From Streptomyces marispadix (GTDB taxonomy: Bacteria > Actinomycetota > Actinomycetes > Streptomycetales > Streptomycetaceae): a DNA stretch of 64,000 nucleotides. This document shows positions 43,920-60,686 of the stretch, piece after piece. Under the pieces are notes generated by a model that saw nothing but the letters and a program-made list of their open reading frames with translations, was not told where the DNA came from and searched no databases. The stretch is taken from assembly GCF_022524345.1 (NCBI RefSeq), contig NZ_JAKWJU010000002.1:2418001-2482000 (forward strand), in the 5' to 3' direction. The position numbers and the translations under genes were made by a program. Within the stretch, counting starts at the first letter, position 1. Each line of letters starts with the position of its first letter.

Positions 43920-43933
43920 GGGACCTGCGGCCC
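43920..43933 (+). promoter_or_regulatory. DosR/OsdR-like box 1 before the Acg-like gene
   Basis: GGGAC-CTGC-GGCCC, a 5-4-5 near-palindrome with the geometry of the mycobacterial DosR core GGGACT-WW-AGTCCC. Seven bases separate it from a second copy, as DosR boxes are often paired. Confidence 0.5.
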
Positions 43934-43940
43934 CTCATCG

Positions 43941-43954
43941 GGGCCGACCGGCCC
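43941..43954 (+). promoter_or_regulatory. DosR/OsdR-like box 2 before the Acg-like gene
   Basis: GGGCC-GACC-GGCCC, with both outer half-sites perfectly complementary. It ends about 115 bases before the nitroreductase start. Confidence 0.55.
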
Positions 43955-44067
43955 TCTGCCCCGCACGGCGGCGGCAGGAGCCTGGCGAGTGGGACGGGGT
44001 CGTTCCGTGGCCCGCGTCCAGCATCCCGAGAACGCCGTCTACAAGGAACCGCAGGGAGCCAGTGCCC

Positions 44068-45231
44068 ATGCCTTCCGCCTCATCCCCTCGCGGCGAGGTG
44101 GTGGAGAATCTTGTCCGCGATGCGTGTATGGCACCGTCCATGCACAACGCACAGCCCTGGCGCTTCCGCTACAGCCGCGGAGGCGACTCGATCGAGCTGC
44201 GCGCGGTCCCCGAGCGGGCCGTGCCGCACGCCGACCCCGAGCTGCGGGCACTCCATCTCGGCTGCGGCGCCGCCCTGTTCAATCTGCGGGTGGCCGCACA
44301 GAGCGCCGGCTTCCGGCCCGTAGTGACGCTGCTGCCCGACCCGGACGACTGGCAGACCCTGGCGTCCGTCTCGCTGCGGGAGTCCGCCGGGACCGTCGAC
44401 TCGGGGCTGCCGCTTCTCTACAGGGCGATCTCGGAGCGCCGCACGAGCCGCTACCCCTTCGCCGAGCGCCCGATACCGCCCGCCCTCGCCAACCGCCTTG
44501 TCGAGCAGGCCCGTTCGGAAGGCGCACGGCTGGCGTTCCTCTCCGGCTGGCACCTGTCTCTCGTACTCGACGTGATCGAGGAGGCCGAACTCAGCGCCGG
44601 GCACGGCGGCGACCCGGACGAACGGCTCTGGGTCCGTACGGGCGTGAAGATCTCCGACGCGATCGCGGACGGGGTCCCCCACGACGGCCTCGGGCACCGC
44701 GAGGCCGACGGCAGGGCGCCCGTGAGCGACCTCGCCCACGGCAGGAGCGGCCTCGACACGGGCACGGACGCAGGTGCCGAGGCGAGCGGAGCGGGGCCGC
44801 ATACGGGGACGGAAGTCCCGGGTGCGGGCGAGCGCGGACCGGACATGAACGCGGGCACGAGCCGCCCGGGTACGGGTCCTCAGGGCGCCGTCCCTCAGGG
44901 CGCCGCCCCTCAGGGCGGGGTGCCGGGCGCGGGCGCGGGGGAGTTCGCGCAACTGCCCCATCTGGGGCTGCTCTGCACCGAGCACGACCACCCGGACGAC
45001 TGGCTGATGGCCGGGCAGGCCATGGAGCGGATGCTGCTCACGGCGACCCGGGAGGGTCTGGCCACGTCCTTCGCCACACAGGCGCTGGAACGCCCCGAAC
45101 TGCGCTGGCTGCTGCGCGACCCCGTATGGGGCTCCGGCCCCGTGCAGATGGTGGTCCGCCTGGGCTACGGCCCGCTGGACCCGGCGACACCGCGCCTGCC
45201 GCTGCGGGACGTACTGGAATTCGTGCCCTGA
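44068..45231 (+). CDS. Acg-family nitroreductase-fold protein (DosR-regulon type)
   Basis: A 387-residue FMN-fold protein of the Acg family (Rv2032/Rv3127-like), which is part of the mycobacterial dormancy regulon. Seen are NLVRDACMAPSMHNAQPWRF (the FMN-binding start), LHLGCGAALFNLRVAAQSAG, ISERRTSRYPFAERPIP and the close AGQAMERMLLTATREGLATS then FATQALERPELRWLLRD. Residues about 225-290 are a Gly/Thr/Ala-rich insertion built of short repeats. Start codons ATG 44068 and GTG 44062 are both possible. Two candidate OsdR boxes lie upstream. Acg proteins are thought to sequester FMN rather than catalyse nitroreduction. Confidence 0.88.
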   Translation: MPSASSPRGEVVENLVRDACMAPSMHNAQPWRFRYSRGGDSIELRAVPERAVPHADPELRALHLGCGAALFNLRVAAQSAGFRPVVTLLPDPDDWQTLASVSLRESAGTVDSGLPLLYRAISERRTSRYPFAERPIPPALANRLVEQARSEGARLAFLSGWHLSLVLDVIEEAELSAGHGGDPDERLWVRTGVKISDAIADGVPHDGLGHREADGRAPVSDLAHGRSGLDTGTDAGAEASGAGPHTGTEVPGAGERGPDMNAGTSRPGTGPQGAVPQGAAPQGGVPGAGAGEFAQLPHLGLLCTEHDHPDDWLMAGQAMERMLLTATREGLATSFATQALERPELRWLLRDPVWGSGPVQMVVRLGYGPLDPATPRLPLRDVLEFVP

Positions 45232-45329
45232 CCGAGCCGGGGCCCGCTGCCATGACCGAGCCCGGGCCGTGACCGAGCCCGGGCCGTGACCGGGCCCGTA
45301 CCGCGACCTGCGCGCGAGCCCGCCTCAGT

Positions 45330-45387
45330 CAGCCCTTCAAGCCCCTCAAGCCCGTCAATCCCCTCGAACCCTTCAAGCCCCTCAAGT
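45330..45387 (+). repeat. TCAAGCCC nonamer-type direct repeats
   Basis: Six or so imperfect copies of TCAAGCCCC/TCAATCCCC fill the short gap between the convergent Acg-like and Rv1733c-like genes. Just before them a GTGACCGAGCCCGGGCC unit is repeated. Confidence 0.65.
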
Positions 45388-45397
45388 CCTCGCGGCC

Positions 45398-45964
45398 TCA
45401 GTCGCGGCGGCTCCATCGCGGGCCGACCATCGCCCACTCCCGTTCCCACCCCCTGTCCCGTACGGCGTCCAGGCGCCGCCGTACCAGCCAGCCGGCGCTC
45501 GCCACGGCGAAGCAGGTGGCCACGGCGACGGCTCCGCCCGCGGCGCCGCTCTCCACGGCCACCTCGGTCGCGTCGGGCGGCGGCTCCTGGGGCATGCCAC
45601 GGCGGTCCAGCCACACCGGTGCATGTTCGCCGCGGCGGGTCCCGATCTCGACGGGTGCCCTTTCGGTACGGGTACGGCCGTCCGCAGTCGTCCAACTCAC
45701 CTCGGTGAGGACGGTGGGGTCGTCGGAGACCGTCGCGACCCCGTCCGTGGAGGGCGCGTCCTGGCGCAGCACCGCGGACGTCCGGTGGAGTCCCGGCTCG
45801 TCACGGAGGTTGCCCGCGACGGTGTCCGAGGCCATGGCCCCGGTGAGCGGCGCGGTCACCGTCATGACCACCGCGGCTGCCAGCCCCGCCCATGCCTCGG
45901 CACGGTCGGAGCGACGCCGGAGCGGATTCCTGCGCCAGCGCCACAGCCATCTCCTCGTCCTCAT
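45398..45964 (-). CDS. Rv1733c-like membrane protein
   Basis: A 188-residue protein with RTRRWLWRWRRNPLRRRSDR, then a first membrane helix AWAGLAAAVVMTVTAPLTGA, an external domain with TEVSWTTADGRTRTERAPVE and GEHAPVWLDRRG, and a second helix GGAVAVATCFAVASAGWLV before a short basic tail. This layout matches the Rv1733c family of the mycobacterial DosR regulon; Streptomyces members are common. The ATG at 45964 follows GAGGAG. It is divergent from the response-regulator gene, with candidate regulator boxes in the 210-base interval. Biochemical role unknown. Confidence 0.83.
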   Translation of the reverse strand: MRTRRWLWRWRRNPLRRRSDRAEAWAGLAAAVVMTVTAPLTGAMASDTVAGNLRDEPGLHRTSAVLRQDAPSTDGVATVSDDPTVLTEVSWTTADGRTRTERAPVEIGTRRGEHAPVWLDRRGMPQEPPPDATEVAVESGAAGGAVAVATCFAVASAGWLVRRRLDAVRDRGWEREWAMVGPRWSRRD

Positions 45965-46030
45965 GTGCCGACTCCTCACCGCGGCTGACCGGCCACGGGA
46001 GCGAGGTGATCTGCCGGGCGCGGCCTAAGG

Positions 46031-46044
46031 GGGCCGAAACGTCC
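46031..46044 (-). promoter_or_regulatory. DosR/OsdR-like box facing the Rv1733c-like gene
   Basis: On the plus strand GGGCC-GAAA-CGTCC, so the minus strand reads GGACG-TTTC-GGCCC. It lies 67-80 bases before the Rv1733c-like start. Confidence 0.5.
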
Positions 46045-46084
46045 ACCGATGCCGGTACGGACGGCCCCCTCCTTCGCCCCGCCG

Positions 46085-46098
46085 GGACCGTTCGGCCC
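46085..46098 (+). promoter_or_regulatory. DosR/OsdR-like box before the response regulator gene
   Basis: GGACC-GTTC-GGCCC, preceded by another G. It lies 78-91 bases before the regulator's ATG, a good place for autoregulation. Confidence 0.55.
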
Positions 46099-46175
46099 TA
46101 CGCGGGCCGCGAGCGGCGGAGCGACGATGCGAACAGCGGCGCTACGCCGGGGTTCCCGAGTGGAAGCAGTGCGAC

Positions 46176-46886
46176 ATGAGCGATCTGCCGGAGTTCTCCG
46201 AGCAGAACCCCATCAGGGTCCTGCTGCTCGACGACCACGAGGTTGTACGGCGCGGCGTGCACGATCTGCTGGAGGCGGAGACCGACATCGACGTCATCGG
46301 CGAGGCCGCCACCGCCGAGCAGGCGCTGGCCCGCGGGCCCGCGCTCCGTCCGCATGTGGCCGTACTGGACGTGCGGCTGCCCGACGGCGACGGCGTGACC
46401 GTCTGCCGCGAGCTGCGCTCCCGCATGCCCGAACTGGCATGCCTGATGCTGACGTCCTTCGACGACGACGACGCCCTGCTGGACGCGATCATGGCCGGTG
46501 CCTCCGGCTATGTGCTGAAGCAGATCAAGGGCTCCGACCTGGTCTCCGCCGTACGCACGGTCGCGGCGGGCCAGTCCATGCTCGACCCGGCGACCACGGC
46601 CCGGCTGATGGGCAGCCTGCGCGGCCCGGAGGCACGCGAGGAGGAGCAGGAGGAGGACGCGTTCGCGGGCCTGTCGCCGAGGGAGCGGGACATCCTCGAC
46701 CTGATCGGGGAGGGGATGACGAATCAGGAGATCGGCAAGCGGCTGTTCCTGTCGGAGAAGACGGTGAAGAACCACATCTCGCGGCTGCTCGCGAAGCTCG
46801 GCGTGGAACGCCGGGTCCAGGCCGCCGTGCTGGCCACACAGGCGCAGGCGCAGTCCCCGGAGAAGGACCGGCACCGCAGGCACTGA
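46176..46886 (+). CDS. osdR: DevR/OsdR-type response regulator (NarL/FixJ family)
   Basis: A 236-residue two-domain regulator. The receiver has IRVLLLDDHEVVRRGVHDLL, the phospho-acceptor in HVAVLDVRLPDGDGV, LTSFDDDDALLDAIMAGASG and YVLKQIKG. The output domain has GLSPRERDILDLIGEGMTNQ and EIGKRLFLSEKTVKNHISRL then LAKLGVERR, the LuxR-type HTH with the Lys-Asn DNA contacts of DevR. Streptomyces coelicolor has a characterised DevR-like regulator, OsdR, paired with the sensor kinase OsdK; gene context here fits that pair. It should activate the surrounding stress genes on hypoxia or redox signals. The symbol is given by resemblance. Confidence 0.85.
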   Translation: MSDLPEFSEQNPIRVLLLDDHEVVRRGVHDLLEAETDIDVIGEAATAEQALARGPALRPHVAVLDVRLPDGDGVTVCRELRSRMPELACLMLTSFDDDDALLDAIMAGASGYVLKQIKGSDLVSAVRTVAAGQSMLDPATTARLMGSLRGPEAREEEQEEDAFAGLSPRERDILDLIGEGMTNQEIGKRLFLSEKTVKNHISRLLAKLGVERRVQAAVLATQAQAQSPEKDRHRRH

Positions 46887-46904
46887 AGGACCAGACCCGC
46901 GGCA

Positions 46905-46964
46905 GCACTTCCTGCCGACTGAGAGCGCTGCCTGCCGACTGAGACCACTTCCTGCCGACTGAGA
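46905..46964 (+). repeat. Three 20-bp tandem repeats between the regulator and kinase genes
   Basis: Units at 46905, 46925 and 46945 share the 14-base core CCTGCCGACTGAGA and differ in the first six bases. The array lies in the convergent gap between the regulator and sensor kinase genes, so it may affect termination. No protein is encoded. Confidence 0.88.
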
Positions 46965-47081: not shown

Positions 47082-48938
47082 TCAGCCGCCGGGGGTCCCC
47101 TCCTCGCCGACCCCGGCTCCGGCCCCGTCCCCGCCCCCGGGCTCGTCCGCCGGGACCCGCCATACGAGCCTCGTGCCGCCGCCGGGGGGCGTATCGAGGC
47201 GCAGTCCGCCGCCGAGGCGTTCCGCCCGTTCCGCGAGATTGTGCAGTCCGCTGTGCCGGGCGCCCTCCGGTATGCCGGCGCCGTCGTCCACGACGCCGAG
47301 CGTGAACGTCCGCCCCGTCGGCCCGTGTCCACCCGTCGTCTCCCCCGTCGCCTCAGGCGCGGCTTCCGCCGCGACCTCCGCGGTCACGCGCACGCTGTCC
47401 GCACTGGCATGGCGTGCGACGTTCGACAGCGCCTCCCTCAGCACCGCCACGGCCTCGTCGGCGACCGCGCCGGGCACCTCCGTATCGAGCAGGCCCTCCA
47501 TGCGCAGTTCCGGCGTGAAGCCCAGCGCGGAGGCCACGTCCCGCACCGCGCCCGTGATCCGGCCGCGCAGCCCCTCATGTGAGGCGGCGTCGCCGTCGTG
47601 GGACCGCAGGCCGAAGATGGTCGACCGGATGATCTTGATGGTGGCGTCGAGATCGTCCACGGCGCGCAGCAGCCGCTCACGTGCCTTGGGGTGCTCCACG
47701 AAAGGCTCGGCGCTCTGGAGCGTCATCCCGGTGGCGAAGAGCCGCTGGATCGCCAGGTCGTGCAGGTCGCGGGCGATGCGGTCGCGGTCCTCCAGCAGCG
47801 TCATCTGCTCGGCGTCGCGGCGCCGTTCGGCGAGTTCCATGGCCACGGCGGCCTGTCCTGCGAAGGCGCTCAGCGGTGCGATCTGCGGTCCGTCGAAGGG
47901 GCGGCAGGGCTTGGCGCGGGCGAGCAGTAGTACGCCCCTGGCCGCGTTCTCGGCGATCATCGGCACGGCGACGGCAGGTCCCAGACCCTCCCAGCGTGGC
48001 GAGGCGCCCTCGAACCGCGCGTCGTTCTCGATGTCGGCGCTCACGGTGACCTCGCCCGCGGCCATCGCGGCGCCCGCGAAGGAGCCCTCGCGCGGCAGCC
48101 GCAGCGCCCTGTGGTGTTCGGCGTCGGTGCCCGCCGCCACCGCGACCCTCAGCGTCTCGCCGCCGTTCTCCGTGAGGGCGAGTACGCCGAGGTCCGCGGA
48201 GAGGATGGTCCGTGCGAGTTCGACGATCAGCCCGAGCACCCGCTGCTCCTCGATGCCGGAGAGCAGCGCCCGAGTGACCTCGGCGTTCGCCTCCATCCAG
48301 CGCTGGCGGTAGCGGGCCTCCTCGTAGAGGCGTGCGTTCTCGACGGCCACGCCCGCCGCGGCGGCGAGGGTCGAGAGGACGGTCTCGTCCTCACCGTCGA
48401 ACTCCCCGCCGCCTCGCTTCTCCGTCAGACAGAGGTGGCCGAACACCTCGTCCCGCACCCTGATCGGCACCCCGAGGAACGAACGTATCGGCGGGTGCCC
48501 TGTCGGCAGCCGCCGCGAGGTCCCACTGCCGTCGAGGTCGGACAGCCGCAGCGGCACCGGGTTGCGGGTCAGCTCGTCCAGCAGGACGTCGCCCGCCGGC
48601 AGTGGCGCCGTCAGCGGGCCCCCGTCCTCGTTCTTCTGCCGCCCGTCGGCGCCCACCGGGATGAAGCGCGAGACCCTGCCGTCCTCCCCGAGCACGCCGA
48701 GCGCCCCGTACTCGGCGTCGACCAGCACCACCGCCGCCTCGGCGATGCGCTGGAGCACCTGCGGGAGTTCAAGCTCACGGCCGACGGAGAGCACCGCGTC
48801 GAGCAGGCTCTGGATGCGGTCCCGCTTGCCGCGCACCGCGTCGATCCGTGTCTGAAGCTCTTCCAGCAGGTCGTCGAGGTGCATACGGGGCAGCCCGCCG
48901 GGCCCCTCGCCGTCCCTGTGATGCACAGTGCCGCTCAT
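47082..48938 (-). CDS. osdK: DevS/OsdK-type sensor histidine kinase with two GAF domains
   Basis: A 618-residue cytoplasmic kinase. GAF-A (about 60-205) contains AEYGALGVLGEDG and GHPPIRSFLGVPIRVRDEVFG. Its His148 sits where mycobacterial DevS has the haem-ligand His149 (YHPPMRTFLGVP as I recall it). GAF-B (about 225-375) follows, then the HisKA_3 site RIARDLHDLAIQRLF (His393) and an HATPase domain with VLREALSNVARHA, VVDDGAGIP and GLHNLAERAERLGG. An Ala/Glu/Thr-rich insert splits the HATPase domain and the C-terminus is Gly-rich. It is convergent with the response regulator and should phosphorylate it according to oxygen or redox state. Confidence 0.9.
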   Translation of the reverse strand: MSGTVHHRDGEGPGGLPRMHLDDLLEELQTRIDAVRGKRDRIQSLLDAVLSVGRELELPQVLQRIAEAAVVLVDAEYGALGVLGEDGRVSRFIPVGADGRQKNEDGGPLTAPLPAGDVLLDELTRNPVPLRLSDLDGSGTSRRLPTGHPPIRSFLGVPIRVRDEVFGHLCLTEKRGGGEFDGEDETVLSTLAAAAGVAVENARLYEEARYRQRWMEANAEVTRALLSGIEEQRVLGLIVELARTILSADLGVLALTENGGETLRVAVAAGTDAEHHRALRLPREGSFAGAAMAAGEVTVSADIENDARFEGASPRWEGLGPAVAVPMIAENAARGVLLLARAKPCRPFDGPQIAPLSAFAGQAAVAMELAERRRDAEQMTLLEDRDRIARDLHDLAIQRLFATGMTLQSAEPFVEHPKARERLLRAVDDLDATIKIIRSTIFGLRSHDGDAASHEGLRGRITGAVRDVASALGFTPELRMEGLLDTEVPGAVADEAVAVLREALSNVARHASADSVRVTAEVAAEAAPEATGETTGGHGPTGRTFTLGVVDDGAGIPEGARHSGLHNLAERAERLGGGLRLDTPPGGGTRLVWRVPADEPGGGDGAGAGVGEEGTPGG

Positions 48939-49001
48939 CGACCCTCCGCATGAATTGGGAGGATTTGTCCGTTGCCCTAGTCCAAACAGTAGCCGCTGGA
49001 C

Positions 49002-49015: not shown

Positions 49016-49030
49016 GGCCAGTCTGCCCTC

Positions 49031-49063: not shown

Positions 49064-49068
49064 CAGCC

Positions 49069-49082
49069 GGGACGATCGGCCC
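49069..49082 (-). promoter_or_regulatory. DosR/OsdR-like box distal to the kinase gene
   Basis: GGGAC-GATC-GGCCC, 131-144 bases before the kinase start. The GATC centre and half-sites are nearly symmetric. Confidence 0.5.
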
Positions 49083-49140
49083 CTGCCCGATCCGAAGACC
49101 GGCCCCGCCTCTCGCTTGCGGGAAGGCCCCCGCCTTCCGC

Positions 49141-50283
49141 TTACGGCCGCTCGCCCACGCCCGTACGCAGCTCCCGCAGCCGCCCCCCGCCCGGCAGGCT
49201 CCGCGTGAGCGTGGGGGTGTCCATTCCGGCCACGTTCCGCAGACCGGTCAGGAAGGCGCCCACCGCCTCGTCCGCGGTCCACCTCGGCGTCCAGCCCAGC
49301 TCACGCCCGGCACGGCCCGCGTCCATCAGCGGCAGCCGCAGCACAGCGTCGAAGAGCTGCGGCGAGGCGGGCAGCAGATGCGAGTGCCAGCTCGCCGCGA
49401 GCGCCGTACGCAGCGGCCGCAGCGGCATCCGTACGACACGGGCGTCCAGCAGCCCCGCCAGGACCTCGGCGTCCACGATGGGGTCGGCCGCGAGGTTGAA
49501 GGCGCCGCGTGCGGTGCCGGTGACGGCCAGGCGGTACGCCTCGGCGGCGTCGTCGGTGTGCAGAGTCTGCATCCGCAGCCCCGGCACGTCCGGCACGATC
49601 GGCACCAGCCCCGGCCTTACGAGGCGCTGCGGCAGGAAAGGTCCCGCGAACAGCCGCCTCTGCTCGCTCGCCGACTCCTGCTTGAAGAGGAAGCCGGGAC
49701 GCATGCGCACCACGCGCACCTCGGGGTGGCTCGGTTCGAAGCCGTCCAGCGCCCGCTCCAGATAGGACTTCTCCCGGCAGTAGGCCGCCTCGGGCCAGCC
49801 GTGCGTCGGCCAGCTCTCGTCGACCTGGCGGTCCTTGGGTCCGGGCGAGTAGGCACCCACCGAGGACGCGTGCACCAGCGCGGGCACCCCGGCGTCCGCG
49901 ACGGCGTCGAAGACCCGCAGCGAGCCGAGGACGTTGGTGCGCCAGGTCGTGGACGGCTGATGGGTGGGCTGGAAGATCCACGCGAGATGCACGACTGCGT
50001 CGGCACCGCGGAAGAGCCTGGTCAGTCCGTCCGTACGGCCGTCGCGCTGCACGTCCTCGCGGCCGATGTCCGCGGAGGCCCAGGTGGTCTTCGGGGGCGA
50101 CCAGCCCGGGATGCGGCGGGCCACGCCCAGCACCGAGCCGACCTGCGGATCGTCGGCGAGGGCACGCACCACGCTCGTACCGACGTTGCCCGTGGCGCCG
50201 ACCACGACGACGCGCAGGCCGGGGCCGCCCGTACCGGACTTGGAAGCGCCACGTTCGGGGGAAGCGTCAGGTTCAGGGGTCAT
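49141..50283 (-). CDS. NAD-dependent epimerase/dehydratase (extended SDR)
   Basis: A 380-residue short-chain dehydrogenase of the extended type. The cofactor loop is RVVVVGATGNVGTSVVRALA, followed by DAVVHLAWIFQPTH, LVHASSVGAYSPG and the YxxxK-like AAYCREKSYLERAL with the catalytic Tyr-x-x-x-Lys. A later QTLHTDDAAEAYRLAVTGTA is typical of sugar or lipid epimerases. It begins at ATG 50283 with a Pro/Glu/Ser-rich leader of about 20 residues. It lies upstream of the kinase gene in the same direction, inside the putative dormancy regulon. Substrate unknown. Confidence 0.87.
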   Translation of the reverse strand: MTPEPDASPERGASKSGTGGPGLRVVVVGATGNVGTSVVRALADDPQVGSVLGVARRIPGWSPPKTTWASADIGREDVQRDGRTDGLTRLFRGADAVVHLAWIFQPTHQPSTTWRTNVLGSLRVFDAVADAGVPALVHASSVGAYSPGPKDRQVDESWPTHGWPEAAYCREKSYLERALDGFEPSHPEVRVVRMRPGFLFKQESASEQRRLFAGPFLPQRLVRPGLVPIVPDVPGLRMQTLHTDDAAEAYRLAVTGTARGAFNLAADPIVDAEVLAGLLDARVVRMPLRPLRTALAASWHSHLLPASPQLFDAVLRLPLMDAGRAGRELGWTPRWTADEAVGAFLTGLRNVAGMDTPTLTRSLPGGGRLRELRTGVGERP

Positions 50284-50436: not shown

Positions 50437-50880
50437 TCATGTGGCGGCGCGCCCCGAGGGCAGCACGGCTCGGATGTCCGGCGGGAGGACGTCCTCCAGC
50501 TTCCGCATCAGCTCGGGCGCCACCGCCGCGTCCAGCACCTCCAGTACGGCGCCCGCACGGCGCAGGGCCTCCTCCTCGGACGTCTCGCCGCGCCAGGCCA
50601 CGCGCCCCGCGAAGACGGGCAGGTCGAAGCGTTCCCCGCTGGTCCTGCCCTCGGCACGCTCGTGCGGCGACATCTCGTGTACGGCGACGACGCGGCGCAG
50701 CGACTCGGCCGCCTCGTGCGGGAGTTGCGCGGCCAGATGGTCGGCCACTCCGTCGGGTACGCGCTCCGCGACGGTCTCAAGGGTGGCACGCACGGCCTGC
50801 TCCGCCGCCTGCCTGCTGCCGAGGTCGGCACGCGCCTGCACCTGCCCGGTGAACTCCTCGTAGCGCATCGCTCCTGCCAT
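50437..50880 (-). CDS. DUF2267-family protein
   Basis: A 147-residue helical protein of the DUF2267 type: MRYEEFTGQVQARADLGSRQ, AEQAVRATLETVAERVPDGV, DHLAAQLPHEAA and FDLPVFAGRVAWRGETSEEE, with a repeat-like two-half arrangement ending LEDVLPPDIRAVLPSG. ATG 50880 or ATG 50868 (MRYEEF) may be the start. The function of DUF2267 is not known. In Streptomyces it often sits near universal stress proteins, as here. A weak regulator-box-like GGACGATCGG lies 45 bases upstream. Confidence 0.8.
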   Translation of the reverse strand: MAGAMRYEEFTGQVQARADLGSRQAAEQAVRATLETVAERVPDGVADHLAAQLPHEAAESLRRVVAVHEMSPHERAEGRTSGERFDLPVFAGRVAWRGETSEEEALRRAGAVLEVLDAAVAPELMRKLEDVLPPDIRAVLPSGRAAT

Positions 50881-51164: not shown

Positions 51165-52418
51165 TCAGCGGGCTCCTTCGCCGGGGCGCCCGGCGGCTTG
51201 GTGTCCGGCCCGGTCGACGGCTTGTTCAAGCACGTCACCCGCGTGCTCGACCTCGTCCAGCAGCCGTACAGCCTCCGCCAGGAGAATCCCGTAGGGCTCG
51301 GACGGGTCGCTCACGGGCAGCGGCGAGCCGCTCTCCGCCGCCTCGGCCAGCCTGCCGCGCGCCTCCTCCAACTCCTCGACGGCGGCGCCCAGTTCGCGGC
51401 ACTGCTCGCCCAGCCGGTCCTCGTCGAGGCGGCCGAAGACCTCGGCGACGGCGGCGAAGCACGACAGGAAGTCGCCGTAGCGGACCAGAAACCACCGGTA
51501 CCCCCGGCCGTCACGGTCTTCCCCGTCGTGCCACTGGTCGAAGCTGCGCGTCATCGACGTCATCTGATAGGTGATCCGCTCCAGGGCGTCGGTGACCTCC
51601 TGATAGCCGGTGAAGCTGGGGCGGCCACGCCAGCGGCCCAGCACCCGCCACGGGTGGTAGTGCACGCTCTCCCGTGCGGTCTGCACGGACGTCTGCGCCT
51701 GCGCGGTCATGGGCCCGAGCTGCGCCGCGCGATAGCGCCAGCGCTCCGTGCTCTCCTTGTCCAGCTCCCCCCTGCGCAGCGCGGCGCAGACGTCCTCGGC
51801 CAGATCGCCCAGTGACTGGCCGAGTACGTGGATGCCGTCCTCGGCGCTGCGGTAGCGCATCGGCGGCAGCACCAGCACGTTCACCACGACGCCGACCCCG
51901 CAGCCGATGAGCACGAGCAACACGATCTGCCCCAGCTCTCTCAGCCCCTGGCTCTGCCCGGCAGCGGCGGCGTAGGTGGAGAAGGCGAAGAACGCGGCCG
52001 TGGTGACCTGCGACCCCTGCGGCCCCAGCCGCCGCCATCTGCCGATGAACGCCGCGATCAGCGCCACCAGTACGAAGCTCAGCAGATTCGGGCCGAGGAA
52101 CGCGCCGAACGCGCCCTGTAGCGAGACGCCCACCGACACCGCGCCCACGTGACGCAGCGCCTGCAACAGCGACTGATACGCGGTGATCTGCACGATCAGC
52201 ACTGCCGAGAACGGTGCGAACGCCGGGCTCTGCGCGCCGATCAGATCGTGCGCGATGTACCACGAGACGCTCGCCACCAGGGCGCTCTTGCCGATGAGCG
52301 TGAGCGTCTGCCGCTCGCTGCTGTTCGGGTTCGCGGCCCTGCGCAGCCACTGGGACACGCGGGCCGCACGGGCCTGAGGCGCCGCCGACCGCATCAACGG
52401 CGCCTGAGCCTTCGCCAT
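51165..52418 (-). CDS. Aromatic acid exporter/FUSC-type membrane protein
   Basis: A 417-residue protein. The N-terminal half holds about six membrane helices: [91 protein letters not shown] and [20 protein letters not shown] then [11 protein letters not shown]. The C-terminal half is cytoplasmic and helical with coiled-coil character. This is the aromatic acid exporter (ArAE/FUSC-like) layout. ATG 52418 has GGGGGAG upstream. It may export aromatic acids or respond to membrane stress; the substrate is not visible. Confidence 0.83.
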
Positions 52419-52763: not shown

Positions 52764-54416
52764 ATGCCTGTAGTGACCGAACCGCCCCCACGGGAAGCCC
52801 CTACCCGCCGCCGCCGGCGGCCTGGCGCTGTGATGGTCACCTGGCTCTCTACGACGGACCACAAGAAGATCGGCTCTCTCTATATGGCGAGCGGCTTCGT
52901 CTTCTTCCTCATCGGCGGCGTGCTGGCGCTGGTGATGAGGGCCGAACTGGCGCGTCCCGGACTCCAGTTGATCTCATCCGAGCAGTACAACCAGGCGTTC
53001 ACGATGCACGGCACGATCATGATGCTGTTCTTCGCCACCCCGCTCTTCGCCGGGTTCGCCAACGCGATCATGCCGCTCCAGATCGGCTCGCCCGACGTGG
53101 CCTTCCCCCGCCTGAACATGCTGTCGTACTGGCTGTATCTCTTCGGCGGCGGCATCACGCTCATCGGCTTCCTGACCCCTGGCGGCACCGCCGACTTCGG
53201 CTGGTTCGCCTACACGCCGCTCTCCGACCAGCAGCACTCGCCCAACCTGGGCGGCGACCTGTGGGTCATGGGCCTGGCCCTCTCCGGCTTCGGCACGATC
53301 CTCGGCGCGGTCAACTTCGTCACCACGATCGTCTGCATGCGCGGCCCAGGAATGACGATGTTCCGCTTGCCGATCTTCACCTGGAACATCCTGTTGACGA
53401 GCGTGCTGGTGCTCCTCGCCTTCCCCGTGCTCGCCGCCGCGCTCTTCGCGCTGGAGGCCGACCGCAAGTTCGGGGCGCACATCTACGACGCGGGCAACGG
53501 CGGAACGCTGCTGTGGCAGCACCTCTTCTGGTTCTTCGGCCACCCCGAGGTCTACATCATCGCGCTGCCGTTCTTCGGGATCGTGACGGAGATCCTCCCC
53601 GTCTTCAGCCGCAAGCCGATCTTCGGCTACGTCGGCCTCGTCGGCGCGACCGTCGCCATCACCGGCCTGTCCGTGACCGTATGGGCACACCACATGTTCG
53701 CCACCGGCGCCGTGCTGCTGCCGTTCTTCTCGTTCATGTCGTTCCTGATCGCGGTGCCGACGGGCGTGAAGTTCTTCAACTGGATCGGCACCATGTGGCG
53801 GGGGTCGCTGTCGTTCGAGACGCCGATGCTGTGGAGCGTGGGCTTCCTGGTGACGTTCCTCTTCGGCGGTCTGACGGGCGTGCTGCTCGCGTCGCCGCCC
53901 ATGGACTTCCACGTCACCGACAGCTACTTCGTCGTGGCCCACTTCCACTACGTGGTCTTCGGCACCGTCGTCTTCGCGATGTTCGCAGGCTTCTACTTCT
54001 GGTGGCCGAAGTTCACCGGGCGGATGCTCGACGAGGCCCTCGGCAAGATCCACTTCTGGACGCTCTTCATCGGCTTCCACACCACGTTCCTCGTCCACCA
54101 CTGGCTCGGCGCCGAGGGCATGCCGCGCCGCTACGCCGACTACCTCGCCTCCGACGGCTTCACCGGGCTGAACATGGTCTCCACCGTCGGCGCCTTCCTG
54201 CTCGGCCTGTCGACGCTGCCGTTCATCTACAACGTATGGAAGACCGCCGTGTCCGGGCAGAAGGTCGAGACGGAAGACCCGTGGGGCTACGGCCGCTCCC
54301 TGGAGTGGGCCACGTCCTGCCCGCCGCCCCGGCACAACTTCGGGACGCTGCCGCGCATCCGCTCCGAGTCCCCGGCCTTCGACCTCCACCACCCGGAACA
54401 CTCCGAGGGCATCTGA
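52764..54416 (+). CDS. ctaD: Cytochrome c oxidase subunit I (orphan paralogue)
   Basis: A 550-residue haem-copper oxidase subunit I with twelve membrane helices. It has [35 protein letters not shown] (haem a ligand His), [20 protein letters not shown] (CuB His and the cross-linked HPEVY), [19 protein letters not shown] (CuB His pair) and [20 protein letters not shown] (haem ligands). The K-channel Lys region [20 protein letters not shown] is present. ATG 52764 is used. Subunits II, III and the cytochrome bc1 genes are absent nearby, so this is a second copy that must pair with subunits from elsewhere. Its place in the stress cluster suggests use in low oxygen. Confidence 0.95.
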
Positions 54417-54572: not shown

Positions 54573-55037
54573 ATGACGACCCCCGCACGTCCGCGTCTGA
54601 TCAACGCGCTGCCTCCCGAGGGGCGCGAGCGGTTCATGCGGCTGGCCAGTCAGGTGGGGTTCCCCGGCGGCACCCGAATCTTCGAGGAGGGCCGGCGGGC
54701 GGACAGGTTCTGGATCGTCCGCAGCGGCTCCGTCACCCTCGACCTGCACGTACCGGGGCGGCAGGCGGCGACCGTCGAGACCCTGGGAACGGACGATCTG
54801 CTCGGCTGGTCCTGGATGTTCCCGCCATACGTCTGGCAACTGGGCGCCTCGGCCGCCTCGCAGGTCAGCGCCCTGGAGTTCGACGCGGACGAAGTACGGG
54901 AGCTGTGCGAGGAGGACCCCGAACTCGGCCGCGTCGTCTACCACCAGGTCGCCTGGATCATCGCCCGGCGGCTGCACGCGGCCCGTACGAGACTGCTAGA
55001 CCTGTACGGACCGCAGGGCAGCGCGCCAGGGGTCTGA
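54573..55037 (+). CDS. Cyclic-nucleotide-binding-domain protein without DNA-binding domain
   Basis: A 154-residue protein consisting of one cNMP-binding beta-barrel: LINALPPEGRERFMRLASQV, GGTRIFEEGRRADRFWIVRS then GSVTLDLHVPG, LGTDDLLGWSWMFPPYVWQL and ASQVSALEFDADEV, finishing with the helix VVYHQVAWIIARRLHAARTR. A Crp/Fnr HTH is absent, so it cannot act as a classical regulator alone. It follows ctaD by 156 bases. ATG 54573 or GTG 54564 can be the start. It may sense a nucleotide or haem-linked ligand and act on a partner; the cAMP-contact residues (GELA/RxS) are not clear. Confidence 0.83.
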   Translation: MTTPARPRLINALPPEGRERFMRLASQVGFPGGTRIFEEGRRADRFWIVRSGSVTLDLHVPGRQAATVETLGTDDLLGWSWMFPPYVWQLGASAASQVSALEFDADEVRELCEEDPELGRVVYHQVAWIIARRLHAARTRLLDLYGPQGSAPGV

Positions 55038-55149: not shown

Positions 55150-56253
55150 TCAGCCGAACCTCGCCCCGCTCCCCGCGGTGGTCACCAGCGACGAGCTGTC
55201 CGCCCGGTAGACCTGCTCGCCCTTGAGCGCGATCTTCAGCGCGCCCGTCTCGGCCGCGCCCGCGAAGACCTCGTACGCCTCCTCCATCGCGCCCAGCTCG
55301 AAGACGTGCGTGACCAGCGACGACACCGGCAGCCTCCCGGCGGCGAGCATGCTCAGCAGCATCGGCGTCGAAGAAGTGTCGACCAGGCCCATCCGTATCG
55401 TCAGGTCCTTGATCCACAGGTCTTCCAGGTGCAGTGCCGCGGGCTTCCCGTGTACGCCGATGTTCGCGACGTGGCCGCCCGGCCGCACCATGCGGGTGCA
55501 CATCTCGAACGTCTCCGGCACGCCCACCGCCTCGATCGTCACGTCCGCGCCGAGCCCGTCCGTCAAGTCGTAGACGAACTGTTCGGGCCGGTCGGAGGCG
55601 AGCACCCTCGCGTCGGCGCCGAAGCGGCCCGCCGCCTCCAGCCGTCCCGGCGTCAGGTCGACGGCGACGACGCGGTCGGGCGAGTACAGCCGCGTGGTGG
55701 CGATCGCCGCGAGCCCGACGGGCCCCGCGCCCACCACGACGACGGTGTCCCCGGGGGACACCTGCCCGTTGAGCACGCCGACCTCGTAGCCGGTGGGATA
55801 GATGTCCGCGAACAGCACCGCGTCCTGGCTGTCGATCGCGCCCGGCAGCAGATGCACCGAGTGGTCCGCGAACGGCACACGCACGTACTCGGCCTGTGTG
55901 CCGTCGATGCGGTGCCCGAGGATCCAGCCACCGCCGCCGCGGCACTGCCCGTAGGAGCCCTCACGGCAGAAGCGGCACCGGCCGCACGCGGTGATGCAGG
56001 AGACCAGCACCCGGTCGCCCGGCCGTACCGTCCGCACGTCGCGGCCCGCCTCGACCACTTCGCCGACGGCCTCGTGCCCCAGCACGGTGCCGGGCATCAC
56101 CCTCGGGACCTCGCCGCTGAGGATGTTGAGATCGGTGCCGCAGATGCTGGTGGTCTCCACCCGTACGACGACGTCCTGCGGATCGTGAATGTCCGGATCG
56201 GGCACGCTCTCCCAGGCCGCTCTGCCGGGCTCGTGCAAGACCAGTGCCTTCAT
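55150..56253 (-). CDS. Zinc-dependent alcohol dehydrogenase (MDR family)
   Basis: A 367-residue medium-chain dehydrogenase. The catalytic-zinc Cys is in ETTSICGTDLNILSG, the HE pair in MPGTVLGHEAVGEVVEAG, the structural-zinc cysteines in CITACGRCRFCREGSYGQC, and the NAD loop is VVVVGAGPVGLAAIATTRLY. It probably oxidises alcohols or reduces aldehydes with NAD(H). ATG 56253 is used. It is divergent from the universal stress protein gene at 56715, with 460 bases between them holding several regulator boxes. In S. coelicolor a similar alcohol dehydrogenase neighbours stress proteins in the OsdR region. Confidence 0.92.
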   Translation of the reverse strand: MKALVLHEPGRAAWESVPDPDIHDPQDVVVRVETTSICGTDLNILSGEVPRVMPGTVLGHEAVGEVVEAGRDVRTVRPGDRVLVSCITACGRCRFCREGSYGQCRGGGGWILGHRIDGTQAEYVRVPFADHSVHLLPGAIDSQDAVLFADIYPTGYEVGVLNGQVSPGDTVVVVGAGPVGLAAIATTRLYSPDRVVAVDLTPGRLEAAGRFGADARVLASDRPEQFVYDLTDGLGADVTIEAVGVPETFEMCTRMVRPGGHVANIGVHGKPAALHLEDLWIKDLTIRMGLVDTSSTPMLLSMLAAGRLPVSSLVTHVFELGAMEEAYEVFAGAAETGALKIALKGEQVYRADSSSLVTTAGSGARFG

Positions 56254-56385
56254 GGTCGCTCTCCTCCCGCTCCCGTTCGGGCCCATGTCCACCGGGGTCC
56301 GCGGCCGGGTACGACGAGCACGCGGGCACGAGCCCACGCGGTCCGGCACGGCCCCGCGCGGTCGATCGGCGGCCGTCTGCCGTCC

Positions 56386-56399: not shown

Positions 56400-56408
56400 G
56401 GCAGTGCG

Positions 56409-56422: not shown

Positions 56423-56505
56423 ACCCTGGCCTCGGCTCCTCGGCGCCCGCATGGGCCGCCCGGCCCACGGCACACGGCCGAGCGGCCCGGCACACCGGGA
56501 GCACG

Positions 56506-56519
56506 GGGACCTTCGGCCC
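56506..56519 (+). promoter_or_regulatory. DosR/OsdR-like box before the universal stress protein gene
   Basis: GGGAC-CTTC-GGCCC, the closest match to the DosR core in the window apart from the C/G at inner positions. It lies about 200 bases before the stress protein start. Confidence 0.5.
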
Positions 56520-56714
56520 ACCCCTGAGACCCGCCCGGCCTCTCGGCCCCGCGTCGGCTGAGCAGGACTCTTTCACCGAGGGCGCACGTACGCGCCAAGG
56601 CCCGTGGGAGACGGGTCTCCGCGCGAGCCCGCGAGGGCGGCGCCAGCGTGGCGACCCCCGGGACACGGAGGCCACAGGCCCGAGGCCCGGCAGACGGGAC
56701 GGAGGGAGGCGTCG

Positions 56715-57713
56715 ATGTTCCAGACCGTCACGGTGGGCCTGGACGGCACGCGCGAGAGCCTGGCCGCCGTCGACTGGGCGGCCCGGGAGGCGCTCCTGCG
56801 GGGCATAACGCTGCGGATCATCCAGGTCCGTGAGACCGGCGCCTACCCGTATTCGCCCATCGCCGACGACGAGGTCGAGCGCGAGTGGGCACAGACGATC
56901 ACCGGCGAAGCCCTCGACGATCTCAACAGCCGAATGCCGGATCTCTCCGTCACCGTCGACATGGTCGCGGGACGCCCAGCCCATGTGCTCGCGGACGCCT
57001 CCGCCGACACCGACCTGCTCGTACTCGGCTCCCGCGGCCTCGGCACCGTCCTCGGCTTCATCGTCGGCTCGACCGCGCTGCCCACCGTGGCGCACACCGT
57101 GTGCCCCGTGGTCCTCGTACGGGCGCGCCCCCGCACGCACCGGGAGGAGCGCTCCGAGACGGCCGGACCCGGCGCGGGACACGAGCCGTACGGGCCCGAC
57201 GAGTCCTACGAGCCCCACGAGCGGGAGACCGGCGAGCCCGGCGACCAGGACCACCCCCACCTCTACCCCGCGTCGGAGACCCCCGGCGGCGACATCGTCC
57301 TCGGCCTCGACCTGGGCCGCCCCTGCGACGAACTCATCGCCTTCGCCTTCGACATGGCCGCCCGCCGCTCCGCGCAGCTCCGCGTACTCCACGCCTGGGA
57401 CCTGCCCCCGACATACGGAATGCGGCCGCTGCCCGTACCGCCCGCGATGACCAACGAGCTGCTGGCCGCGCAGAACCAGGCGCTCACCGCCACGCTGCGC
57501 CCCTGGCAGGACGCACAACCCGACGTAAAGGTGCAGGCCGAGGCCGTCATCGGGCAGCCTTCGCGGCTGCTGGTGGAGGCGGCCGCCCAGGCGTCGATGC
57601 TGATCGTCGGCCGCCGCAACCGCCGCTCGCGGCTGGGCACCCACGTGGGCACCGTCGCCCACGCCGTCATGCACCACGCACGCACACCGGTCGCCGTCGT
57701 ACCGCACGACTGA
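56715..57713 (+). CDS. Universal stress protein with tandem USP domains
   Basis: A 332-residue protein of two UspA domains. Domain 1 opens TVTVGLDGTRESLAAVDWAA and holds the ATP-binding GSRGLGTVLGFIVGSTALPT (G-2x-G-9x-G-S/T pattern). Domain 2 opens DIVLGLDLGRPCDELIAFAF and ends GRRNRRSRLGTHVGTVAHAV then MHHARTPVAVVP. A 45-residue acidic/His-rich linker joins them. Tandem-domain USPs are major members of the DosR regulon (Rv2623, Rv1996, Rv2005c). ATG 56715 has GGAGGGAGG upstream. Confidence 0.92.
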   Translation: MFQTVTVGLDGTRESLAAVDWAAREALLRGITLRIIQVRETGAYPYSPIADDEVEREWAQTITGEALDDLNSRMPDLSVTVDMVAGRPAHVLADASADTDLLVLGSRGLGTVLGFIVGSTALPTVAHTVCPVVLVRARPRTHREERSETAGPGAGHEPYGPDESYEPHERETGEPGDQDHPHLYPASETPGGDIVLGLDLGRPCDELIAFAFDMAARRSAQLRVLHAWDLPPTYGMRPLPVPPAMTNELLAAQNQALTATLRPWQDAQPDVKVQAEAVIGQPSRLLVEAAAQASMLIVGRRNRRSRLGTHVGTVAHAVMHHARTPVAVVPHD

Positions 57714-57769
57714 CCCGTGCCTTTCCGGCGGCCGCACGCCGGAAAGGCCGCCCCAGGAGGTGCTCGCAG

Positions 57770-59117
57770 ATGTCCGAGGCGACGAACACGGACCTGTACG
57801 AGCTGACCATGGCGCTGTCGTACGTACACGAAGGGATGACCGAGCCCGCGACCTTCAGCCTCTTCGTCCGCGACCTGCCGCCCGAACGCGGCTTCCTCGT
57901 GGCCGCCGGACTCGAACCGGCCCTCGACTTCCTCAGCTCCTTCCGTATCGGCCCCGCCGATCTGGACACCTTCGCCAAGGCCATGGGCCGCCCCGCCCGC
58001 GATCTGGTGCCGCTGCTCGGCACGACCTTCGATGGCGAGGTACGTGCAGTCCCCGAAGGCACCGTCGTCTTCGCAGGCGAGCCGCTCCTTGAGGTCACCG
58101 CGCCGCTGCCCGTCGCACAACTCGTCGAGACGTATCTGCTGAACCTGCTCAGCCACCACACCGCCGTCGCCTCCAAGGCCGCGCGCTGCGTGCTCGCCGC
58201 GGCCGGACGACCCGTCATGGACTTCTCGCTGCGCAGGACGCACGGACTCGAAGCCGGCCGCACGGCCGCACGCACGGGCGCCCTCGTGGGCTTCGCCGGT
58301 ACGAGCAACGTGAACGCTGCCGCCTCCCTCGGCCTCACCGCGATCGGGACGATGGCGCACTCGTACGTGGAGGCGTTCCCCACCGAGGAGAGCGCCTTCC
58401 GCGCCTTCTCCCGCTCCCACCCGGGCCGTCCCGTGACGTTCCTCGTGGACACCTACGACACGGACACGGGCGTGCGCACCGCCGCACGCGTGCTCAAGTC
58501 CCAAGGGGCGCAAGCCGGTTCGGCGATCCGGCTGGACAGCGGCGACCTGTCCATACAGGCCGTACGCGCACGGCGCATCCTCGACTCGGCCGGACTCACG
58601 GACGTACTGATCGTCGCGAGCGGCGGACTCGACGAATACGCCGTGGACCGGCTCGTACACGAGAAGGCACCGATCGACGTCTACGCAGTGGGCACCCGCG
58701 TCGGCGTCGCTGCCGACGCACCGTATCTGGACTCGGCGTACAAGCTCGTCGCCTACAACGGCTAAGCCCGTCATGAAGCTCTCCTCCACCAAGACCACCG
58801 CCCCCGGCGCGAAACAGATCTTCCGCAGGCCCGGCGCCCCCGACGTGATCGCCCTGCGGCACGAACACCCCACCGCCTCCGGCATACGGCCCCTGCTGCG
58901 CCCGGTGATGCGCCACGGCCGCCGCGTCAGCGACCCGCCCGCCCTGCGCGAGGCCCAGGAACGCTTCACCGCGGAACTCGCCCAACTGCCCCCGGAATCC
59001 CGCCGCATCACCGGTCCGCTGCCGCAACGGCCCGTCTACTCCGACCAGTTGAAGTCCCTGGCCGATCAGGTCCGGTACCGCATCGAGAGCGAGATCCTCA
59101 CGGCTGAACGGGTCTGA
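57770..59117 (+). pseudogene. pncB: Nicotinate phosphoribosyltransferase (PncB2-like), split by a 1-bp insertion
   Basis: Part 1 (57770-58765) is the NAPRTase barrel: SEATNTDLYELTMALSYVHE, LFVRDLPPERGFLVAAGLEP, LLSHHTAVASKAARCVLAAA, DFSLRRTHG (PRPP site), FAGTSNVNAAASLGLTAIGT then MAHSY, and AIRLDSGDLSIQAVRARRIL. It stops at TAA 58763-58765 after KLVAYNG. Part 2 (58773-59117) continues with MKLSSTKTTAPGAKQIFRRP, the normal C-terminal part, in the next frame. Removing the T at 58763 restores GKPVMKLS. The enzyme salvages nicotinate for NAD. A PncB2 gene belongs to the mycobacterial DosR regulon. Part 2 could also be translated separately from its own ATG. Confidence 0.88.
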
Positions 59118-59140
59118 ACGGGCCTGAACGGGTCTGAGGG
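59104..59140 (+). repeat. 10-bp tandem repeat at the end of pncB
   Basis: Three and a half copies of CTGAACGGGT/C run across the pncB stop codon into the spacer. A purine-rich GGAGAGG-type stretch follows to 59254, leading into the ribosome site of the next gene. Confidence 0.8.
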
Positions 59141-59254
59141 GGCGGAGGGAGAGCGGAACGGCGGGAGAGGGCGGAACAACAGGAGAGGACAGGAGAGGCC
59201 GAACCGGAATCGGAACAGAAACGGAAAGGGAAACGGAAGAAGGAGGAGGCCACC

Positions 59255-59554
59255 ATGCCGAACACACGCGAATGGAACGTACGCATCTTCCTCTACGAGG
59301 ACGAAGGCACCACCACCGCCCGCGCGGTACTCGAGACCGGCGACACGACACTCACCGGCAGAGGAGTCGCCCGCTGCAATCCCGAGGACGTGGACATCCC
59401 CGAGATCGGCGACGAACTCGCCGCGAGCCGCGCCATGGCGGAACTCGGCCGCCAGATGATGCGCGCCGCCGACCGCGACCTACAGGGCGTCGGCGCGGGC
59501 CCGTTGCCGCCCAAGGCACGCGCGGCCTTCGGCTGGCCCGACGTGACGGTGTGA
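59255..59554 (+). CDS. DUF1876 protein (Rv1738/Rv2632c-like)
   Basis: A 99-residue protein: REWNVRIFLYEDEGTTTARA, TTLTGRGVARCNPEDVDIPE and IGDELAASRAMAELGRQMMR. This is the DUF1876 family, which includes Rv1738, one of the most strongly DosR-induced mycobacterial proteins. Rv1738 has a fold similar to ribosome hibernation factors, so a role in translational shutdown is possible. ATG 59255 follows a GGAGGAGG ribosome site. It is another marker of the dormancy-type regulon. Confidence 0.88.
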   Translation: MPNTREWNVRIFLYEDEGTTTARAVLETGDTTLTGRGVARCNPEDVDIPEIGDELAASRAMAELGRQMMRAADRDLQGVGAGPLPPKARAAFGWPDVTV

Positions 59555-59597
59555 CAGCGCAGCGGCGCCGCTGGCGCTGTTGTCGCCTGAAGCTCGA

Positions 59598-59723
59598 CGG
59601 AGGTGAACTCGCTCGCGGAGGTGGACTCACTCACGGAGCTGAGCCAGCTCGCGGAGGGGAAGTGGCTCACGGAGGGGAGTCGGCTCGCGGAGGTGAACCG
59701 GCTCCCGGAGATGAACTCGACGG
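59598..59723 (+). repeat. Seven 18-bp degenerate tandem repeats before a stress protein gene
   Basis: Seven consecutive units, each starting CGGAG and averaging CGGAGGTGAACTCGCTCG, fill most of the gap between the DUF1876 and second stress protein genes. The units contain GGAGGTG-like Shine-Dalgarno sequence. No gene is apparent in them. Confidence 0.85.
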
Positions 59724-59801
59724 AGCTGTAAGGGAGTTCGAAGGGTCCGGCCTGCGCCCGGGCAGCCGGCTCTGCGACCTGGCCGGAAGTGAAGGTGCGT
59801 C

Positions 59802-60686
59802 ATGACGGAAGCAGACGACCGGGTCGAGGTCGCGTCCGAGCCCCGGCCGGTGGCCGTAGGGGTCGACGGCTCCGCGGAGAGCCTCGCCGCAGTCGAATGG
59901 GCGGGAGCGCACGCCGTCTCGCACGACGTACCGCTGTGGATCGTGTGCGCACGACGCAAACCCCTGGGCGCCGCCGACGGCCAAGAACCGTGGCCCCAGG
60001 AGCAGTTGCACGCCGCCCACCGGCTGGCCGCCGGTCTCTACCCCTCCCTGAAGATCACCGAGGACGCGGTCTGCGAGTCCCCGGTGAAGGCCCTGATGTC
60101 CGTCGCGTCGGAGGCCGGTCTCCTCGTCCTCGGCTCCCGCGGCCTCGGCACCGTCGAGGGCTTCGTCCTGGGCTCGGTGGGACTCTCGGTCATCGCCCAC
60201 ACCCGGCGGCCGGTGGTCGCCGTACGGGGCCGTATGCCCGCGGGCGCCGCCGCCGAGACCGGCCCGGTCGTAGCGGGAATCGACCCCCACGACCGCCATG
60301 CCGACGTGCTCGACTTCGCCTTCCGTACGGCCTCCGCCCAGCGGCGGACCCTCCGAGTAGCCCACGCCTGGAGCGTGCGCGCCCTCTACTCCTACCCCTC
60401 CGCACTCCCCGAGCCCCGCATGACGGCACAGGCCGGACGGCAGGCGCAACAGGCACTGGAGGAGACCCTCCAGCCCTGGCGCGAACGCTTCCCCGACGTC
60501 ACCACCGAAATCTGGACCGAGGGCGCAGCCGTCGCCCCCTACCTCCTCCAAGTCGCCTCCGACGCAACGCTCCTGACCATCGGCCGCCGCCCCCGCGGCC
60601 ACCCTTTCCCCACCCGCATCGGCCCGGTGGCCCACGCCCTCCTCCACCACTCCCCGCGCCCGATCGCGCTGATTCCCCACGCGTGA
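59802..60686 (+). CDS. Universal stress protein with tandem USP domains
   Basis: A 294-residue two-domain UspA protein. Domain 1 has PVAVGVDGSAESLAAVEWAG and the ATP-binding GSRGLGTVEGFVLGSVGLSV. Domain 2 has PVVAGIDPHDRHADVLDFAF and ends GRRPRGHPFPTRIGPVAHAL then LHHSPRPIALIPHA. Unlike the first stress protein it lacks a long linker. The second domain's nucleotide pattern is less complete. It ends the stress cluster, 135 bases before tRNA-Arg. Confidence 0.92.
   Translation: MTEADDRVEVASEPRPVAVGVDGSAESLAAVEWAGAHAVSHDVPLWIVCARRKPLGAADGQEPWPQEQLHAAHRLAAGLYPSLKITEDAVCESPVKALMSVASEAGLLVLGSRGLGTVEGFVLGSVGLSVIAHTRRPVVAVRGRMPAGAAAETGPVVAGIDPHDRHADVLDFAFRTASAQRRTLRVAHAWSVRALYSYPSALPEPRMTAQAGRQAQQALEETLQPWRERFPDVTTEIWTEGAAVAPYLLQVASDATLLTIGRRPRGHPFPTRIGPVAHALLHHSPRPIALIPHA

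Follow-up and report, generated by a model that had tools for sequence, protein, structure and literature searches.

The window analyzed here, a stretch of 64,000 nucleotides from Streptomyces marispadix (positions 2,418,001-2,482,000 of a 6,677,320-base contig), carries an OsdR/DosR-type island: 14 genes between window positions 44,068 and 60,686 (~17 kb), among them those for a DevR/OsdR-like response regulator and a DevS/OsdK-like sensor kinase. The island itself is of a known kind; what is new, as judged from sequence comparison, is the recurrent erosion of the kinase's heme sensor in the clade to which the window belongs. The genes are:

44068..45231, plus strand: Acg-like flavin mononucleotide (FMN) oxidoreductase (NF047509, 269.7 bits, cut-off 199)
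45398..45964, minus strand: Rv1733c-family membrane protein (NF050032, 137.8 bits, cut-off 80)
46176..46886, plus strand: devR/osdR-like response regulator (best PDB relative 3c3w, DevR, E 6.7e-76)
47082..48938, minus strand: devS/osdK-like sensor kinase with GAF-A, GAF-B, HisKA_3 and HATPase_c (domain search; best solved relative 2vzw, for GAF-A, E 2.6e-35)
49141..50283, minus strand: NAD-dependent epimerase/dehydratase (PF01370)
50437..50880, minus strand: DUF2267 protein (PF10025)
51165..52418, minus strand: ArAE_1/FUSC-type membrane protein (PF06081)
52764..54416, plus strand: orphan aa3 oxidase subunit I, ctaD (NF050116, 1015.9 bits, cut-off 880)
54573..55037, plus strand: cyclic nucleotide (cNMP)-binding protein without a helix-turn-helix (HTH) domain (PF00027 as sole domain)
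55150..56253, minus strand: zinc-dependent alcohol dehydrogenase, ADH (PF08240, PF00107)
56715..57713, plus strand: tandem universal stress protein, USP1 (PF00582 twice)
57770..59117, plus strand: nicotinate phosphoribosyltransferase (NAPRTase, pncB2-like), frameshifted (stop at 58763-58765)
59255..59554, plus strand: Rv2632c-like (DUF1876) protein (PF08962, 95.6 bits)
59802..60686, plus strand: tandem universal stress protein, USP2 (PF00582 twice)

A sequence-only reading had proposed a dormancy regulon here, and every gene that it named lies about where it was placed and matches a curated family; its list omitted the ADH (55,150-56,253, minus strand) and the NAPRTase frame proved to be broken. 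The regulator is of the NarL-family DevR/OsdR type, with a receiver motif VLDVRL that holds the receiver Asp and a GerE domain that holds the HTH; devR and devS are convergent and form no operon. We take 2vzw to be the GAF-A domain of DosT, and the PF08962 protein to be the one named DUF1876 and likened to Rv1738. The island ctaD has the usual COX1 motifs. The Acg-like protein contains a low-complexity Gly/Pro/Thr-rich insert, the length of which varies among relatives.

The heme domain of DevS across the clade

The window kinase can be aligned with the GAF-A domains solved for mycobacterial DevS and its homologue 2vzw, and the parts considered below are:

48312..48770, minus strand: GAF-A (heme) domain of DevS, residues 57-209 (alignment to 2vzw)
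47823..48266, minus strand: GAF-B domain of DevS, residues 225-372 (domain search)
48495..48497, minus strand: codon of His148, the proximal heme ligand position (DosS His149, DosT His147; alignment, role from PMC4082495)
48429..48431, minus strand: codon of Cys170, the distal Tyr position (DosS Tyr171, DosT Tyr169; alignment)

The protein keeps the proximal His148 and a DosT-like Gly at 81, and its distal Tyr is replaced by Cys170; because of Cys170, it is classed here as a DevS-family kinase only, not as a full DosS/DosT-type sensor. The proximal His, the other residue by which the DosS/DosT class is recognized, is present in the window, absent from S. abyssalis, Streptomyces sp. HNM0575 and S. 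nanshensis, and doubtful in S. albidus CAP215. How unusual are such changes? At loci L030-L129, which hold 103 other devS rows (101 with the pocket aligned), the proximal His is found in 99/101 aligned rows and the distal Tyr in 101/101. The His exceptions are S. abyssalis (L050), in which His is replaced by Ser, and CAP215 (L051), in which HPPM reads RHQT; in HNM0575 (L052) and S. nanshensis (L065), GAF-A is missing and the N-terminus is in frame. All four exceptions belong to the window's clade, several named members of which are presumably marine. The sequence-only reading had assumed a working hypoxia sensor; it is the heme domain of this sensor that is being lost in this clade.

Two protein searches, the best 120 matches of each being taken, gave 151 proteins which, together with the L065 kinase, make 152 rows; the second query was the HNM0575 protein, which lacks GAF-A, so that this search was unbiased towards the domain. 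Among the matches listed, the 26 clade rows comprise 17 with a canonical pocket, five with GAF-A deleted, three with His lost and one with Tyr lost (the window); outside the clade, 120 of 126 rows are canonical, none is deleted, five have lost His and one Tyr (Fisher 8e-5, on rows that are not independent). The GAF-A deletions are in frame: one in HNM0575, one shared by S. nanshensis and Amel2xB2, and those in P0122 and P0123, with other break points. The sharing of one deletion by two differently named strains argues against an assembly artefact there; the HNM0575, P0122 and P0123 deletions are single records each. His is lost in S. abyssalis, CAP215 and P0017. A first tree of 45 rows requires at least six binary changes, or seven with four states. 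The full tree was built on GAF-B plus the kinase core, and each loss was counted as irreversible; an inner clade of 22 rows, with 13.8% of the branch length, holds 7 of the 12 loss events (binomial 4e-4). Searches of the open PMC literature brought up no earlier description of GAF-A or heme-ligand losses of this kind.

The ratio of nonsynonymous to synonymous substitution (omega; Nei-Gojobori with codon bootstrap) points to the same domain. For the clade, represented by its full-length genomes only (window, L050, L051 and WMMB 322, L057), omega is 0.327 (0.229-0.425) in GAF-A, 0.150 in GAF-B and 0.217 in the kinase; five bootstrapped control groups give 0.103-0.201, 0.178-0.261 and 0.179-0.243, respectively. 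The GAF-A/GAF-B ratio is 2.19 (1.26-3.76) in the clade vs 0.40-0.88 in the controls; a sixth control, Micromonospora, was not bootstrapped (GAF-A 0.176, GAF-B 0.544, kinase 0.197). GAF-B also evolves more slowly than the kinase at the protein level, with a GAF-B/kinase distance of 0.84 in the clade vs 0.99-1.51 in six outside groups; the inner-clade GAF-A protein distances are drawn in part from deletion rows, of which only short remnants align. The devR gene has an omega of 0.139, which argues that the system is not simply decaying. The USP2 value is void since matches outside HNM0575 are USP1 paralogues.

Open frames 453-471 codons long, each with one GAF domain in which the aligned His is kept, occur in the genomes of the window, HNM0575 and S. 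abyssalis (L159, L160 and L161); they are a possible alternative gas-sensing kinase.

Predicted OsdR boxes and gene order

Which DNA signal could unite these genes? The DosR consensus TTSGGGACTWWAGTCCCSAA was rejected as the island box: its best intergenic match in the island has 7 mismatches (at 49066, on an OsdR site), and a 6-mismatch match lies inside acg. As this consensus gave no convincing promoter match, a 16-base OsdR matrix was used in its place, made from 26 sites of Table 1 in Urem et al. 2016 (PMC5069765). A pattern search with one mismatch allowed is unspecific (247/249 matches vs 206/205 for a reversed control), which limits informative value to high matrix scores. The best three matrix matches in the 64 kb, at 43,940, 46,084 and 49,068, all fall in intergenic DNA of the island; the fourth (23,603; 12.12) lies outside it and the fifth (56,505; 12.10) between ADH and USP1. 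The island matches are:

43940..43955, no strand assigned: OsdR-box match upstream of acg (score 18.7; weaker match at 43919)
46084..46099, no strand assigned: OsdR-box match between Rv1733c and devR (score 16.3; weaker match at 46053)
49068..49083, no strand assigned: OsdR-box match upstream of devS (score 16.1; weaker match at 49001)
56505..56520, no strand assigned: OsdR-box match between ADH and USP1 (score 12.1; weaker match at 56385)

The 3,006 bp of island intergenic DNA hold 3 sites scoring at least 16, 4 at least 12 and 6 at least 10; the background, sampled from the same genome as 20 stretches of 20 kb at even spacing (399,700 positions, with coding DNA), holds 0, 4 and 28. The corresponding Poisson probabilities are 9e-9 (with a floor of half a hit for the expected count), 3e-8 and 1e-7. 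Sites also recur in S. abyssalis, CAP215, HNM0575, WMMB 322 and S. nanshensis, with scores, in this order, of 18.9, 13.9, 11.8, 14.0 and 10.2 upstream of acg; 20.0, 16.2, 16.2, 16.3 and 16.3 between Rv1733c and devR; and 9.8, 10.2, 9.4, 14.4 and 8.6 upstream of devS. Between ADH and USP1, the four relatives whose loci extend there score 15.5, 9.2, 13.9 and 13.1. The devR box is invariant at 15/16 positions in six genomes, both GAF-A-less ones included (alignment mean identity 61%).

Gene order and orientation recur in these five genomes, with gaps, as far as the compared loci extend (S. abyssalis L050, CAP215 L051, HNM0575 L052, WMMB 322 L057 and S. nanshensis L065, which ends at DUF2267, the other four extending to ctaD/cNMP); two further loci, L133 and L134, are taken to be from HNM0575 and S. 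abyssalis. HNM0575 has 14/14 island genes in order, with GH3 at the left, and S. abyssalis 13/14. Among the four relatives that extend beyond DUF1876, HNM0575 alone has USP2 in this position: it was not found in the following 1.6 kb of S. abyssalis, 1.7 kb of CAP215 or 3.0 kb of WMMB 322. CAP215 and WMMB 322 lack ctaD and cNMP, and WMMB 322 also ArAE. In farther Streptomyces, the same kinds of genes appear in shuffled order, and 181/199 sampled genomes of the genus have a DevS relative at E 1e-60 or better. The recurring order is, by this comparison, more than chance.

Both synteny and the predicted boxes in four promoter regions support the common control of the OsdR/DosR-type island that the sequence-only reading had proposed. 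USP1, pncB and DUF1876 share one direction, with little space between them, and may be transcribed together from the promoter at 56,505. The further idea that ctaD, ArAE, DUF2267, the epimerase and cNMP are new regulon members by virtue of their placement is not supported: in the window, no site in the spaces upstream of these genes or of USP2 scores above 6.3, and both ctaD and cNMP are missing in 2/4 relatives that extend there. Scattered sites in relatives weigh against excluding some of them: 13.7 and 8.7 upstream of DUF2267 in S. abyssalis (L050), 10.8 between ArAE and ctaD in HNM0575 (L052), and 8.3 between the epimerase and DUF2267 in WMMB 322 (L057). A further match, which lies inside ctaD itself and scores 8.2 in the window and 12.5 in both L050 and L052, is taken for coding conservation.

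As a new member, ctaD was rejected: it has no upstream box, and ctaD matches occur in 64/65 genomes (three in the window genome). A ctaD lies ~1.2 kb from a DevS in G049 and ~13 kb from one in G006 (hand reading, among the matches listed). The cNMP protein was likewise rejected as a novelty and looks like a recurrent DevS neighbor instead: matches occur in 55/65 genomes, the window genome included, and a copy lies within 10 kb of DevS in 19/44 other genomes with both (approximate hand count, among the matches listed). Nor is it a newcomer to the regulon, since SCO0168 ("Crp-like") is already listed with predicted OsdR sites in Table 1 of PMC5069765.

Elsewhere in the genome, three further strong box matches (G000:C2:450841, 4495447 and 4850346; 16.5-17.6; L001, L010 and L011) have as neighbors open frames that show no clear tie to the regulon; these match nothing in Pfam, apart from one that has formyltransferase and enoyl-CoA hydratase domains. 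Another region of tandem Usp genes (L135) has a single site, of 13.7.

The NAPRTase gene contains a one-base frameshift that leads to the stop at 58,763-58,765. A programmed frameshift was rejected because four relatives (HNM0575, S. abyssalis, CAP215 and WMMB 322) have an uninterrupted frame here; the frameshift may be a mutation or a sequencing/assembly error. An ARAGORN tRNA-Pro call inside this frame (57,897-57,985) is probably spurious. Adjoining the island are a tRNA-Arg(CCT) and then an integrase fragment on the minus strand (60,821-61,560), followed by an NB-ARC/TPR gene (61,959-63,905); this region resembles the border of an integrated element.

Probable uncoupling from heme and competing explanations

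GAF-A has been repeatedly deleted or pocket-mutated while the regulator, its boxes and the kinase core were kept, a pattern which suggests that the dormancy regulon is probably being uncoupled from heme-based gas sensing in this clade, with the rest of the switch retained. How would such a switch operate? Phosphorylated DevR would bind the predicted boxes upstream of acg, Rv1733c/devR, devS and ADH/USP1-pncB-DUF1876; at the sequence level, the regulator, boxes and kinase core remain normally constrained, and GAF-A is repeatedly deleted or altered in its pocket. By analogy with DosS constructs, of which GAF-B plus kinase is active but gas-blind (PMC4082495), the GAF-A-less kinases would be active but gas-blind, with the regulon kept on or left to GAF-B. 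Ligand-less kinases may be re-tuned or off: the H150A variant of M. smegmatis DosS neither binds heme nor shows kinase activity (PMC4082495). The window kinase, if its Tyr to Cys change acts like DosS Y171F, which has lost ligand discrimination and is active when deoxy (PMC4082495), would still bind heme, fail to discriminate O2, CO and NO, and serve as a simple deoxy-on switch. Control could then pass to GAF-B, to a second DevRS pair where present, or to expression level. It is conceivable, and we propose it tentatively, that the sensor has been switched: heme GAF-A is discarded, the unusually conserved GAF-B carries the input, and OsdR control continues without heme O2/NO sensing. Solved GAF-B structures leave its role in DosS-type kinases unclarified (PMC4082495).

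Several observations weigh against uncoupling. Among the matches listed, 17/26 clade rows, WMMB 322 included, are canonical, and a pocket residue is lost outside the clade too (6/126). In the window the heme His is retained, and the replacement of Tyr by Cys is private among the sequences compared (P0002, 86% identical, has Tyr); it could be a recent change, a neutral one or a base error, and the same assembly has the pncB frameshift. CAP215 has a His one position later (PAGRHQTG), making ligand loss there uncertain. The GAF-A omega comes from four genomes, three of which have altered pockets; one control, violaceusniger-like (a label of this analysis), has an interval, 0.122-0.315, that overlaps the clade's; the GAF-A/GAF-B ratio of the window-WMMB 322 pair alone, 1.62 (0.79-2.89), is not significant; and the GAF-A/kinase protein distance of canonical clade members, 0.89, is within the control range of 0.49-1.16. 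The devS-upstream box is weak in 4/5 relatives (8.6-10.2), and the CAP215 L051 site overlaps the devS start. Could this simply be an ordinary OsdR island in which the heme oxygen sensor works normally and the pocket changes are sporadic noise? The canonical rows, the losses outside the clade, the retained His148 and DosT-like Gly81, and the fact that at loci L030-L129 all 98 aligned rows from outside the clade are canonical speak for it, but we consider it unlikely: 7/12 loss events cluster on 13.8% of the branch length, the in-frame deletions differ in break points, and omega is raised in GAF-A alone.

A hypoxia response that is no longer needed would let the whole two-component system decay, as the domain deletions, lost ligands and window pncB frameshift might imply; this is improbable, given the devR omega (0.139), a kinase (0.217) constrained like the controls, a GAF-B (0.150) below them, open frames that are kept, and a devR box that is conserved even in both GAF-A-less genomes. 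Alternatively, labor may be divided, with a second, canonical DevRS sensing gas and the island kinase acting as a partner that is either constitutive or driven by GAF-B. A second full-length DevS with a canonical pocket exists in HNM0575, WMMB 322 and S. nanshensis (54, 55 and 53% identical to that of the window), thus in both GAF-A-less genomes, and a second devR (73-74%) lies within the same short locus in HNM0575 (4.7 kb) and WMMB 322. Against this division, a threshold of E 1e-60 gives only a single DevS in each of the window genome, S. abyssalis and CAP215, all of which nevertheless carry pocket changes, and WMMB 322 has two, its island copy being canonical; the numbers are small, and we regard this arrangement as possible but doubtful. 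Uncoupling from heme-based sensing, with the regulator, boxes and kinase core preserved, is the reading we favor.

Relation to known systems

The island shares with the M. tuberculosis DosR/DevR regulon (DosS, DosT) the GAF-GAF-kinase architecture and counterparts of Acg, Rv1733c, Usp, Rv2632c-like and NAPRTase proteins, all of which we take to be DosR regulon members there. It differs in being compact, in having an OsdR-type GC-rich box and no island intergenic match to the DosR consensus with fewer than 7 mismatches, and in that GAF-A is deleted or pocket-mutated in part of the window's clade.

The S. coelicolor OsdR/OsdK (SCO0204/SCO0203) island, as described in PMC5069765, likewise has a DevR-type regulator, a DevS/DosT-type kinase, Usp proteins, a zinc dehydrogenase, a nitroreductase, a Crp-like cNMP protein and a palindromic box, AGGGCCGATCGGCCCT. 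Unlike the osdR-osdK operon (PMC5069765), devR and devS in the window are convergent; the window island is ~17 kb and has no nar genes among its 14, it interleaves ctaD, ArAE, DUF2267 and the epimerase, and its heme domain is altered. The box footprints in six genomes narrow down the likely direct targets among the island genes.

The clade offers natural GAF-A-less and heme-ligand-less kinases next to close canonical ones, with a largely common regulon, so that the role of GAF-B and the regulon's need for gas sensing become directly testable in Streptomyces. These natural variants resemble the engineered DosS variants Y171F, M. smegmatis H150A and GAF-B plus kinase (PMC4082495); unlike those, the changes here are natural and repeated in one clade, and the window replaces Tyr with Cys, not Phe.

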